Below, in pieces: positions 27,725 to 31,571 of a stretch of DNA of 64,000 bases. Origin of the DNA: Nitrospinota bacterium (GTDB taxonomy: Bacteria; Nitrospinota; Nitrospinia; Nitrospinales; VA-1); NCBI GenBank assembly GCA_009873655.1, contig WAIB01000006.1:3674-67673 (forward strand), read 5' to 3'. Below the pieces are notes generated by a model. The model made no database searches. It was not told the DNA's origin and saw nothing but the letters and a program-made list of their open reading frames with translations. Position numbers and translations under genes: made by a program. The stretch's first letter is position 1; each line of letters starts with the position of its first letter.

Positions 27725-30112
27725 ATGACAACCATTATTCTAGTCATAATAGCCTTGGCCATTGCTGCCGGAGTGGTTTCTAAGTTTGTAAAAAAAGACC
27801 CCCCACCGAAAAAAAGCTCTTTTTCCGAAAGCGATTCTGATGAAACTTCGGGCCGTCCCAAATTACGGGATCCCAACCAGACAAAAAAAGCCAAAGCGGT
27901 AGTGGAAAAGGCCATAAAGATGTCCACGGAAATGGGAGTGGGAGATATCAAACTATATCTTCCACCAAAGGAACCCGAGTTATTCATAGGGAGGAAGGAA
28001 ATATTTAAAGATATTGTTGCCCGCACCGGAAAACCTCCTGTAATGATCAGTTTCAGTGGTCCCCAGGGGTTAGGGAAAACCACTATGGCGATCATGATGA
28101 TCAAAAGGTTTAACTCACAATTTCCGGGGGACCAGGTTTTTATGGACATGCGTGGAAGCGACCCCAAGGCCCCTTCCCCAATGGAAATAATGAGCAGGAT
28201 AATCACCCGCTTTAAACCCAATCAACCCTTACCTACAGATTTAAAATCCCTGACAAAACTGTATCGAACCATAATAAAAAAGCAAAAAGGGATCCTCATT
28301 CTCGACAATGCTTCGGGGCCCAAGCAAATCAAACCCCTGATTCCGCCCCCTTCCTGGCTTTTAATAACCACATCAGTAAAACCGATAAATTTACCCGGTT
28401 TTATTTCCATCCACCTGGAGCCCCTGGAATATCTGGATTCACACAATATGCTCACACGGCTTTGCCCAAAGCTCAGCCACGCGATTAAAGATATTTCGAA
28501 AATCTGTAAAGATGTGCCTATCGCCCTGGAATTGATCGGAAAACTTTTCGCCATCAACTCCACCATGGACCCGGAATATTTTGCCAATAAATTTCGCGAT
28601 ATAAAAAAGACCCTCGGGCATGGCGACAATGAAACCCCGGCTACAGGTATCGAATCCTCTTTGAAATACAGCTACACTCTTTTACCGGATAAAGCCTCAG
28701 TAGTGTTAAGGAAGCTTACCGCTTTTCCAGGATCCTTCAGTGCAAAAGCAGAGTCCTTTGTTTGCGAAGATACCGATAATTTATCGCTGATTGGCCTTGT
28801 CCAATATGGCCTGGTTGAAGTCAATGAAAATACAGACCGTTTTACCCTGCATGATCTGGTAAGAAAGTATTTAAAACCCCTTGCTTCTGCCGGTGAACTG
28901 GCAATGGCGGAACGGCGGCTTGCCACAGAGTTTATGAATGCCCTGGAAACCGTGGCAAAGCTGACTGCAAAAGGGGGAAAAGCTGCAATAAAAGGCATGA
29001 TGTATTTCGATCAGGAGCTGGATAACATTAAAGCAGGACAGGAATGGAGCCAGAAAAACTGTTCCCGAGACAAAGACGCCGCCAAAGTCTGCAGTGCTTA
29101 CACGGAAAATGGAGCGGAAATAATTGTTAAAAGACTGCAACCCGACGATACCATCCGATGGTTTGAAGCCGCTTTGTCAGCCGCTCAGCAACTTGGCGAT
29201 AAAGAAGCCGAGCGGATGCATCTCCTGAATCTCGGCCCGGAATACAACAGGAAAAACCAGCCGCAAAAAGCCCTTGAGTTTATGGAGAGAGCACTCAACC
29301 TGTGCGGAAAAGAAGGGGACTCGCAGGGGGAAAAAATAGCGATAAGGCATTTGGGCGTTGCCTGCATGGCCCTGAAAAATTATAAACAAGCAGTGGAATA
29401 TTTAGAACAGGATTTGAAATTCACACAAGCAGCCGGTGAAATAAAAGATGAAATGGATCTCCTGGAAAAACTGGGGGAAGCGACTCACAATATCGGCGAC
29501 CTTCAAAAAGCGGTCAAATACGGAGAACAAGCTTTTGAAATGTCCAAAAATGCGGGTGACAAATTAAAGCAAGTCAACCTTTTGAAAATGCTGGGGGAAA
29601 TAAGCCAGGAACTGCAGGAAACTGAAAAAGCGATCGACTATTTTGAAAATGCGCTTGATCTGGCACAAAGAACCAAGGGACAACCTTTTGAAACTGAAAT
29701 TACCAAAATGCTGAGCGAACTGGCAACTCAATCCGGGGATATTCAGAAAGCCCTCTCTTACCTGGAGAATGGATTGATTTCAGCAAAGAAAAATAATGAC
29801 TCAAAGGGAGAGGGCAAAATTCTGATTGAACTTGGAAACACTCATCGGGAAAACAACGATATCGATCAAGCCGCTATTTATTTTGAAGACGCATTGGAAC
29901 TTTCCAAAAAATCGGGAAACAAAGAGTTAGAAGCTGACGCGCTTTGGAAAATTAGTATCGGCCTGGGAAATGAAGAAAGATTGATCGAAGCAACCGAGCG
30001 GGCCAATGAAGCTTTGAAAATTTATGAGGAGATCCAACACCCGGATATCATGACGGTGCGGACACAAATTAGAAAATGGTCGAGCGGGGGAGGCCAGCCT
30101 CCTGCAGAATAA
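27725..30112 (+). CDS. STAND NTPase: N-terminal TM helix, NB-ARC-like ATPase, C-terminal TPR repeats
   Basis: TTIILVIIALAIAAGVV TM; SFSGPQGLGKTTMAIMMI Walker A; GILILDNASGPKQIKPLIPPPSWLLITTSVKP (AfsR-like Walker B/sensor); multiple TPR units. Confidence 0.88.
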   Translation: MTTIILVIIALAIAAGVVSKFVKKDPPPKKSSFSESDSDETSGRPKLRDPNQTKKAKAVVEKAIKMSTEMGVGDIKLYLPPKEPELFIGRKEIFKDIVARTGKPPVMISFSGPQGLGKTTMAIMMIKRFNSQFPGDQVFMDMRGSDPKAPSPMEIMSRIITRFKPNQPLPTDLKSLTKLYRTIIKKQKGILILDNASGPKQIKPLIPPPSWLLITTSVKPINLPGFISIHLEPLEYLDSHNMLTRLCPKLSHAIKDISKICKDVPIALELIGKLFAINSTMDPEYFANKFRDIKKTLGHGDNETPATGIESSLKYSYTLLPDKASVVLRKLTAFPGSFSAKAESFVCEDTDNLSLIGLVQYGLVEVNENTDRFTLHDLVRKYLKPLASAGELAMAERRLATEFMNALETVAKLTAKGGKAAIKGMMYFDQELDNIKAGQEWSQKNCSRDKDAAKVCSAYTENGAEIIVKRLQPDDTIRWFEAALSAAQQLGDKEAERMHLLNLGPEYNRKNQPQKALEFMERALNLCGKEGDSQGEKIAIRHLGVACMALKNYKQAVEYLEQDLKFTQAAGEIKDEMDLLEKLGEATHNIGDLQKAVKYGEQAFEMSKNAGDKLKQVNLLKMLGEISQELQETEKAIDYFENALDLAQRTKGQPFETEITKMLSELATQSGDIQKALSYLENGLISAKKNNDSKGEGKILIELGNTHRENNDIDQAAIYFEDALELSKKSGNKELEADALWKISIGLGNEERLIEATERANEALKIYEEIQHPDIMTVRTQIRKWSSGGGQPPAE

Positions 30113-30114
30113 GA

Positions 30115-30984
30115 TTATTTTTTTAATAAAGGAAATTGCATGGCTTCTCTCTGTGCCACATAACCTTCAGCACACAAACGAGCCAGGTTTCTGACCCTGC
30201 CGATAAAGCCTGTTCGCTCGGTAACACTAATAGCCCCTCTTGCATCCAACAGGTTAAAAGCATGCGAACATTTCAACGTGTAATCGTAAGCGGGAAGAAC
30301 CAGCTCCTTCTCCAGCAATTCCCTGGTTTCCGCCTCATACATATCAAACCATTGAAACAATCTTTCCTTGCTTGAAGCCTCAAAATTGTAACGGGAAAAC
30401 TGTTTTTCCGTTTCGAGGTGAACATCGCCATACAAAAGATTTTCATTCCACTTCAAGTCATAAACGTTTTCTACATTCTGCAGGTACATGGCAATTCGTT
30501 CCAACCCATAAGTCAATTCTGCCGTAACCGGTTTTAAATCGATGCCGCCCACCTGTTGGAAATAAGTAAACTGGGTGATCTCCATTCCATCCAGCCAAAC
30601 CTCCCAACCCAACCCCCAGGCTCCCAAAGTGGGGGATTCCCAATCGTCTTCCACAAAACGAATGTCGTGTTTCAATGGGTCCACCCCTAAAACAGTGAGA
30701 CTGTTTAAATATTGATCCTGCACATCCTGGGGGGAAGGTTTGAGAATGGTCTGGAACTGGTAATAATGTTGAAGCCGGTTCGGGTTTTCTCCATACCTGC
30801 CATCCGTGGGACGACGGGAAGGTTCAACATAGGCCGCGTTGTACGGTTCAGGCCCCAATACTCTAAAAAAGGTGACGGGATTGAACGTGCCGGCACCCAC
30901 CTCTATATCATAGGGCTGATGGACAGCACACTCACGGGTTGCCCAATAGTTTTGCAGGTTTAAAATGATATCTTGAAAATACAT
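30115..30984 (-). CDS. glyQ: Glycyl-tRNA synthetase alpha subunit
   Basis: [70 protein letters not shown]. Confidence 0.99.
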
Positions 30985-31027
30985 AACCGATAGGGTTTAA
31001 CAGAGTTCAACCAATAAAGTCAACCCC

Positions 31028-31222
31028 GCGGAGAACCTCCGCAGGCAACAGCTCCATACCCGCCAAGCCAAGAAAATCCACAAGCCTTTTACCCATGCTT
31101 TTAAAAGGCAAACAAATCTAGAGGGTGGCGAACCGCCACAGGCAACAGCTCCATACCCGCCAAGCCAAGAAAACCCACAAGCCTTTTGCCCATGCTTTTA
31201 AAAGGCAAACAAATCTAGAGGG
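31028..31222. repeat. Two-copy 97-bp tandem element, each copy with two hairpins
   Basis: Copies offset by 97 bp; shared core GGCAACAGCTCCATACCCGCCAAGCCAAGAAAA(T/C)CCACAAGCCTTTT(A/G)CCCATGCTTTTAAAAGGCAAACAAATCTAGAGGG; flanking hairpins GCGGAG-AAC-CTCCGC and GTGGCG-AAC-CGCCAC. Confidence 0.95.
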
Positions 31223-31571
31223 AAGGAAACTTCAGTTTGGCTCCGGGGTAGGCTTTTTCAATAAGAATATCGATGACTTGTTTGATCGCTTTTATATGTT
31301 CTTTTGCTGATGGCATGGCATCGTAATCAGATTCCTCCTCATCAACAGAAATGATCCCTTCCCCCATGTAATTGCAATAGAACGAACCGAGCGGCTTGAA
31401 TTTTTCCAGGGGCTCATTTCCCTGATGTGAATTTACAATCACCATTACCTGCGAATCCCTTTCCCCGGGATAGATTTCAAAGGGCCCGCCCGTTTTAAGA
31501 GTGTGCTGCTTGCAATAATCAATCACCCGCTGCATCTCTTCGGGTGAAATGGCTTTATAGACAGTGTGCAA
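31215..31571 (-). CDS. Hypothetical protein (118 aa)
   Basis: ORF MHTVYKAISPEEMQRVIDYCKQHTLKTGGPFEIYPGERDSQVMVIVNSHQG... Confidence 0.75.
   Translation of the reverse strand: MHTVYKAISPEEMQRVIDYCKQHTLKTGGPFEIYPGERDSQVMVIVNSHQGNEPLEKFKPLGSFYCNYMGEGIISVDEEESDYDAMPSAKEHIKAIKQVIDILIEKAYPGAKLKFPSL

Follow-up and report, generated by a model that had tools for sequence, protein, structure and literature searches.

The MITEs of DDE insertion sequences (ERIC, Correia elements, IS711-type targets) are small, non-coding elements with inverted ends, which insert at TA-containing sites (TA/YTAR) and occasionally supply a stop codon, and the related layout of two hairpin-bearing ends is found in REPINs, which are tied to RAYT genes. 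Common to the GTAG and CGTC REPs and the BIMEs is that they are short interspersed palindromes found mostly at the 3' ends of genes, that REPs and BIMEs occur as singles and as tandem and inverted pairs, and that their stems vary while pairing is kept (PMC3733652, PMC2817692). The GTAG REPs often provide the TAG stop codon of a flanking ORF (PMC3733652), and the variants of REPs keep their palindromes, "suggesting selection for complementary mutations" (PMC2817692).

The window, that is the whole 64-kb stretch of Nitrospinota DNA analysed here, holds two 97-bp units arranged head to tail close to glyQ (31028-31221, counted from the hairpin), which form the only array reported in it by Tandem Repeats Finder. 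The tandem-repeat tool places the units at 31030-31125 and 31127-31222, and the hairpin-based register is the one given in Table 1. The units are 95% identical and spaced 97 bp and, as the sequence-only reading had described, their differences are concentrated in a hairpin: 2 of the 82 positions outside it differ, against 4 of the 15 inside, where pairing is kept at all four (Fisher P = 0.005 for the surplus). That the units differ at six positions speaks against the tandem pair being an artefact of assembly. Each of the two stems is one paired change away from GCGGCG, the stem of the commonest hairpin of the family presented below (GCGGCG-AAC-CGCCGC), by C:G to A:T in unit 1 and by C:G to T:A in unit 2. 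It was also correctly seen that the duplicated unit contains, on the minus strand, the tail and stop codon of a 118-aa ORF (hereafter ORF118), which reads ...CCCTCTAG and ends at 31215; its TAG stop forms the far end of the repeat pair. The second hairpin of the sequence-only reading, GCCTTTT...AAAAGGC, is likewise present in both units. As a feature of the family we reject it: of 57 genus copies, 6 have a perfect 7-bp inverted repeat at this place, two of them being the window's own, and shuffles predict 2.2. The whole 97-nt unit folds no better than its dinucleotide shuffles (z = 0.65, 0.43, -0.51 and 0.10).

Table 1. Features of the tandem pair and of the neighbouring glyQ region (window positions; R1 is the covariance model of the family hairpin).
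Feature	Position	Strand	Evidence or remark
glyQ, glycyl-tRNA synthetase alpha subunit	30115..30984	-	PF02091, E 7e-150
Putative glyQ promoter, TTGACT (31018-31023)-17 nt-TTAAAC (30995-31000)	30995..31023	-	Read from glyQ upstream alignment
118-aa ORF (ORF118)	31215..31571	-	Conserved beside glyQ in several genus members; no Pfam match
Repeat unit 1 (97 bp), family orientation, hairpin first	31028..31124	+	R1 match 31024-31058, 41.2 bits
Repeat unit 2 (97 bp), tandem copy	31125..31221	+	R1 match 31121-31155, 39.3 bits
Terminal hairpin, unit 1, GCGGAG-AAC-CTCCGC	31028..31042	+	
Terminal hairpin, unit 2, GTGGCG-AAC-CGCCAC	31125..31139	+	
Conserved motif 3' of hairpin, unit 1, AGGCAACAGCTC (family form NGGYAAYARGTC)	31043..31054	+	Column counts
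Conserved motif 3' of hairpin, unit 2	31140..31151	+	Column counts
Second inverted repeat, unit 1, GCCTTTTA...TAAAAGGC	31084..31109		Local, not kept in family
Second inverted repeat, unit 2	31181..31206		Local, not kept in family

The 97-bp pair belongs to a lineage-restricted dispersed repeat and is not a single-locus element. The BLASTN search of the unit that had been proposed, run against its own genome and 60 relatives, returned homologues in the form of many short matches, most of which span the hairpin together with flanking bases. For the pattern GGCGGTTCGCC the own genome gave 10 occurrences versus 0 for its reversed control; GAGGTTCTCC scanned by itself did not exceed its control, so this stem alone is no marker. 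With R1, which has 35 positions and includes the hairpin, 16 matches at E <= 1e-3 and about 20 at E < 0.02 were obtained in the own genome, which is 92% complete. Among 78 genomes of the phylum, those compared being mostly fragmentary, 41 gave R1 matches (1-60 per genome), all of them in the window's own order, and none was obtained in the 13 phylum genomes outside it. Within the genus the distribution is patchy, with 8-21 copies in most members and 0-1 in three of them (G003, G004 and G006). Searches of Rfam at gathering and at permissive thresholds gave no match, the best sub-threshold hits being eukaryotic families at chance level, in agreement with the earlier statement that the unit resembles no known RNA family. 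In the literature, our search found no description of REPs for Nitrospinota or Nitrospina, and one for Nitrospinae transposons gave unrelated work only. In our view the pair arose by tandem duplication of a single copy from a non-autonomous REP/MITE-like palindromic repeat family, a reading to which we give a probability of about 0.75.

The core of this family, in the orientation of the window's plus strand, has a stem of 6 bp and an AAC loop, after which comes NGGYAAYARGTC, which by column counts makes up the 3' side, and the four bases 5' of the hairpin vary across the family. The covariance model and covariation test that had been suggested as a check gave a clear result: among 98 aligned matches 98.2% of cells are paired, double changes occur at all six pairs, and the covariation score is 0.386 versus 0.078 for shuffles (0/500) and at most 0.045 for slid-arm controls, figures that lean upward because the match set was gathered by BLAST and a hairpin-containing model, so that well-paired copies are over-represented. 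The flanking motif helped to find stems such as CCGGGC/GCCCGG and CTGGGC/GCCCAG, which the BLAST query did not contain. The joint changes of the two arms fit either selection on the hairpin, as a DNA substrate or as RNA, or an arm-to-arm correction by templating, and the fact that the tandem pair has changed more in its hairpins than in its body agrees with selection and with correction alike. The proposal of an undescribed structured element thus stands in part, in that the element is real, has homologues, a covarying stem and no Rfam counterpart, and fails in so far as it meant an RNA specific to this junction, since it is a dispersed repeat. A REP-like element, an outcome which the sequence-only reading had itself counted against its proposal, is in kind what was found, together with the homologues and the covariation whose lack it had also counted against it.

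The idea of a leader or 3'-UTR element belonging to the ORF118-glyQ junction does not hold. A cis-regulatory element specific to this junction would agree with the position of the pair between the two genes and with the covarying hairpin, but hairpin and motif recur at about 20 other loci, Rfam has no match, and the pair lies upstream of the putative glyQ promoter. This promoter, which a strict consensus scan did not pick up, is conserved among the genus members compared, with or without the repeat. Unit 1 begins 4 nt upstream of its -35 box, and the distance from the TTAAAC box to the glyQ ATG is only about 10 nt, so that the repeat falls outside any glyQ leader. Moreover, in G007 and G008 glyQ has the same promoter, with a different upstream gene and no repeat. 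We therefore consider a junction-specific element very improbable; a locus-specific control RNA of glyQ is refuted by the dispersal of the repeat and its position upstream of the promoter. Four other genus members with the order ORF118-glyQ (G001, G002, G005 and G009) have a related, non-tandem element filling the same gap and ending in a hairpin that abuts the -35 box TTGACT, and the tandem duplication at glyQ is seen in the window's genome only. An old copy may have been set in the gap between ORF118 and the promoter and later tandem-duplicated in the window's species, after which each hairpin would have acquired one paired change, presumably through selection (on DNA or RNA) or arm-templated correction. 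The GlyQ of the window has 83% identity to the GlyQ of a Nitrospinota MAG, on which basis the host is assigned to this phylum. On the other side of glyQ, and convergent with it, a plus-strand gene (27725-30112) has its stop 3 bp from the end of glyQ and encodes a STAND-like protein of 795 aa, which has a weak NB-ARC/AAA region and, at its C terminus, TPR repeats.

Across the genus, the copies are placed at stop codons. Of 57 genus copies, 34 begin at offset 0 or +1 from the stop codon of an ORF that lies on the same strand and is 100 aa or longer; other offsets are almost absent. The count is based on ORFs, some of which are also backed by Pfam. In other genera 5 of 28 copies start at an ORF stop. 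The stops at copies are TAA or TAG in 33 of 34 cases versus 94 of 127 control genes (P = 0.002), a CTAG stop context is found in 18/34 versus 12/127, and Y before TAR is also commoner at copies than in controls (P = 0.001). The bias is thus towards particular stop sequences and not towards stops in general, which speaks for a sequence like YTAR as the target of insertion. ORFs ending at copies include nuoB, moaA, dxr, and carbamoyltransferase and chlorite-dismutase-like genes. In the case of nuoB, the repeat is present in G000 (the window's own genome), G002, G005, G007, G008 and G009, and a native TAG without the repeat is found in G003, G004 and G006; the final residue is the same with or without the repeat, indicating that the stop is native. 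At these orthologous nuoB ends of six species the stems are paired but different.

Some individual loci show further details of the gene ends. At TAA stops the stem begins with A; at one locus (L265) its partner is T and not C, so that pairing passes through the last base of the stop codon, and at another (L075) this A is unpaired. At four nuoB loci (L301 of G007, L251 of G009, L302 of G002 and L305 of G008) the convergent gene seems to enter the right end of the repeat, which, judged by eye, would then encode the final 15-20 codons of that gene, where G003 and G006 have the native end.

The placement at stops could also be explained if the hairpin were a 3'-end RNA element, kept for a role in the mRNA (termination, 3'-end protection or ribosome release) and spread thereby. 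Its exact position at the stop codon in the genus, the paired changes at all six stem positions and the nuoB ends of six species with stems that differ yet pair would all be expected, and in G001 the repeat is located where G005 and G009 have a terminator-like hairpin and T-run. However, the hairpin is missing at the same gene ends in G003, G004 and G006, genomes nearly without copies, and the TAR/CTAG bias of the stops is needless for a function exerted after the stop, whereas it is expected of an insertion target. In addition, the copies of other genera are mostly not at stops, and neither of the two window copies is at any same-strand stop codon. For these reasons we judge a 3'-end RNA element unlikely. 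Quite unlikely, too, is a combined reading as a mobile family whose insertion is aimed at stop codons, in which an enzyme recognising CTAG/YTAR at gene ends would set the hairpin there, the stem would even take in the last base of the stop (TAG...C, TAA...T), and the repeat would be a 3'-end RNA structure from the start and spread without harm to genes.

The reading as a mobile repeat agrees with an insertion polymorphism close to the locus studied. The gene upstream of ORF118 ends in GCTAG, without a repeat, in G005 and G009, and in G001 the repeat follows directly after the same GCTAG, with the shared downstream sequence then resuming; these are the empty and the filled allele, respectively. 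The filled site of G001 is short of about 36 bp of native sequence, and no clean target-site duplication is readable there or at nuoB, so that the G001 site is not a textbook insertion. Directly after the stop, at the place where G001 has the repeat, G009 (L212) and G005 (L211) have a terminator-like hairpin with a T-run.

Part of the copies have a second, inverted end. In a search range of 50-260 nt, the motif occurs in inverted orientation downstream of 10 of 56 genus copies, versus 1 with the reversed control. It lies at a distance of about 70-200 nt, as a rule with a further hairpin after it; a recognisable second end is missing from most copies. The clearest two-ended case is L245, with R1 matches at both ends. 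These two-ended inverted copies have the layout of a MITE or REPIN. Further tandem or inverted pairs of the family are found in G001, G016, G063, G053 and G007. In another genus of the family, loci of G016 (L276, L277, L282) and similar ones contain repeats that are mosaic with the hairpins CCAGCGTNACGCTGG, CCCACGCCTAGTGGG and CCCTCGYTAGAGGG, which suggests several interchangeable terminal hairpins, and at the nuoB of G016 one of these other hairpins lies directly 3' of the TAG stop.

The family is probably an old non-autonomous mobile element. A complete copy consists of a terminal hairpin, with a freely varying but always complementary stem, followed by NGGYAAYARGTC and a variable body of about 50-180 bp, and often closes with the same motif inverted and a further hairpin. 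The most likely agent of placement is a transposase supplied in trans, which would act on the ends formed by hairpin and motif, under a putative target rule that prefers gene ends, especially CTAG/YTAR, that is, the stop codon at the end of a gene. We searched for a Y1 transposase (RAYT) and found none in the own genome (92% complete) nor in most of the genus. Around 8 Y1 genes of relatives (within 1.5 kb) R1 gave no match of credible score. Furthermore, G022 and G014 have a Y1 gene and no copies, and G046 and G048 have copies and no Y1 gene. A RAYT as the mover is hence unsupported, there being no linked Y1 gene and a copy number that does not follow Y1 presence. Against the reading as a mobile element count the lack of a mobilising enzyme in these searches and the position of the two window copies away from any same-strand stop. 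Across the order there are Y1 transposases (L063-L069) that occur as single copies, measure about 330 aa and carry a long extension at the C terminus, with no R1 hairpins nearby.

The compensatory changes at this locus can thus be explained without a new RNA, since dispersed palindromic repeats show paired changes generally, and covariation in a tandem repeat alone should not be taken as evidence of a regulatory RNA. The family is a new one for Nitrospinota, and its fixation at stops makes it a case for asking whether such repeats reflect target choice or an mRNA 3'-end function.

Among systems also found 3' of gene stops, a recombination-site array such as that of integron attC sites would share the position directly after stops, the palindromic form and the variable body. 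Yet the family ends, in the copies read, do not show the paired attC core sites (RYYYAAC ... GTTRRRY), and the host genes, such as nuoB, moaA and dxr, are dispersed housekeeping genes with no cassette array, which makes such an array extremely improbable. With the MITEs of DDE insertion sequences the family shares, as far as their general description goes, the small size, the non-coding nature and, in part of the copies, inverted ends, and it would also share insertion at TA-containing sites and an occasional supply of stop codons, but the inverted motif at its termini measures no more than about 12 bp and is preceded by a hairpin of changing sequence. REPINs have, like L245, two hairpin-bearing ends inverted around a variable body, but no RAYT is linked to the family. 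With REPs it shares the short palindromic hairpin, interspersed, mainly intergenic and in many copies, as well as the position near gene ends, the occurrence as singles and pairs, and stems that change but stay paired. Unlike REPs, it has no conserved GTAG/GTGG or CGTC tag beside the hairpin, the side motif being NGGYAAYARGTC, and the TAG at the stop belongs to the gene itself in empty sites and so is not a repeat tag. It also differs from REPs in that no RAYT is linked to the Nitrospinota repeat, and in that the start of the hairpin is fixed to the stop at 0/+1 in the genus, and not merely near it. The family behaves in the manner of a REP or MITE, but as both the GTAG/CGTC tag and a linked RAYT are lacking, we do not file it in the RAYT-REP families; the most fitting class is a new repeat family of REP/MITE-like kind, whose nearest relatives in kind are the REP elements.
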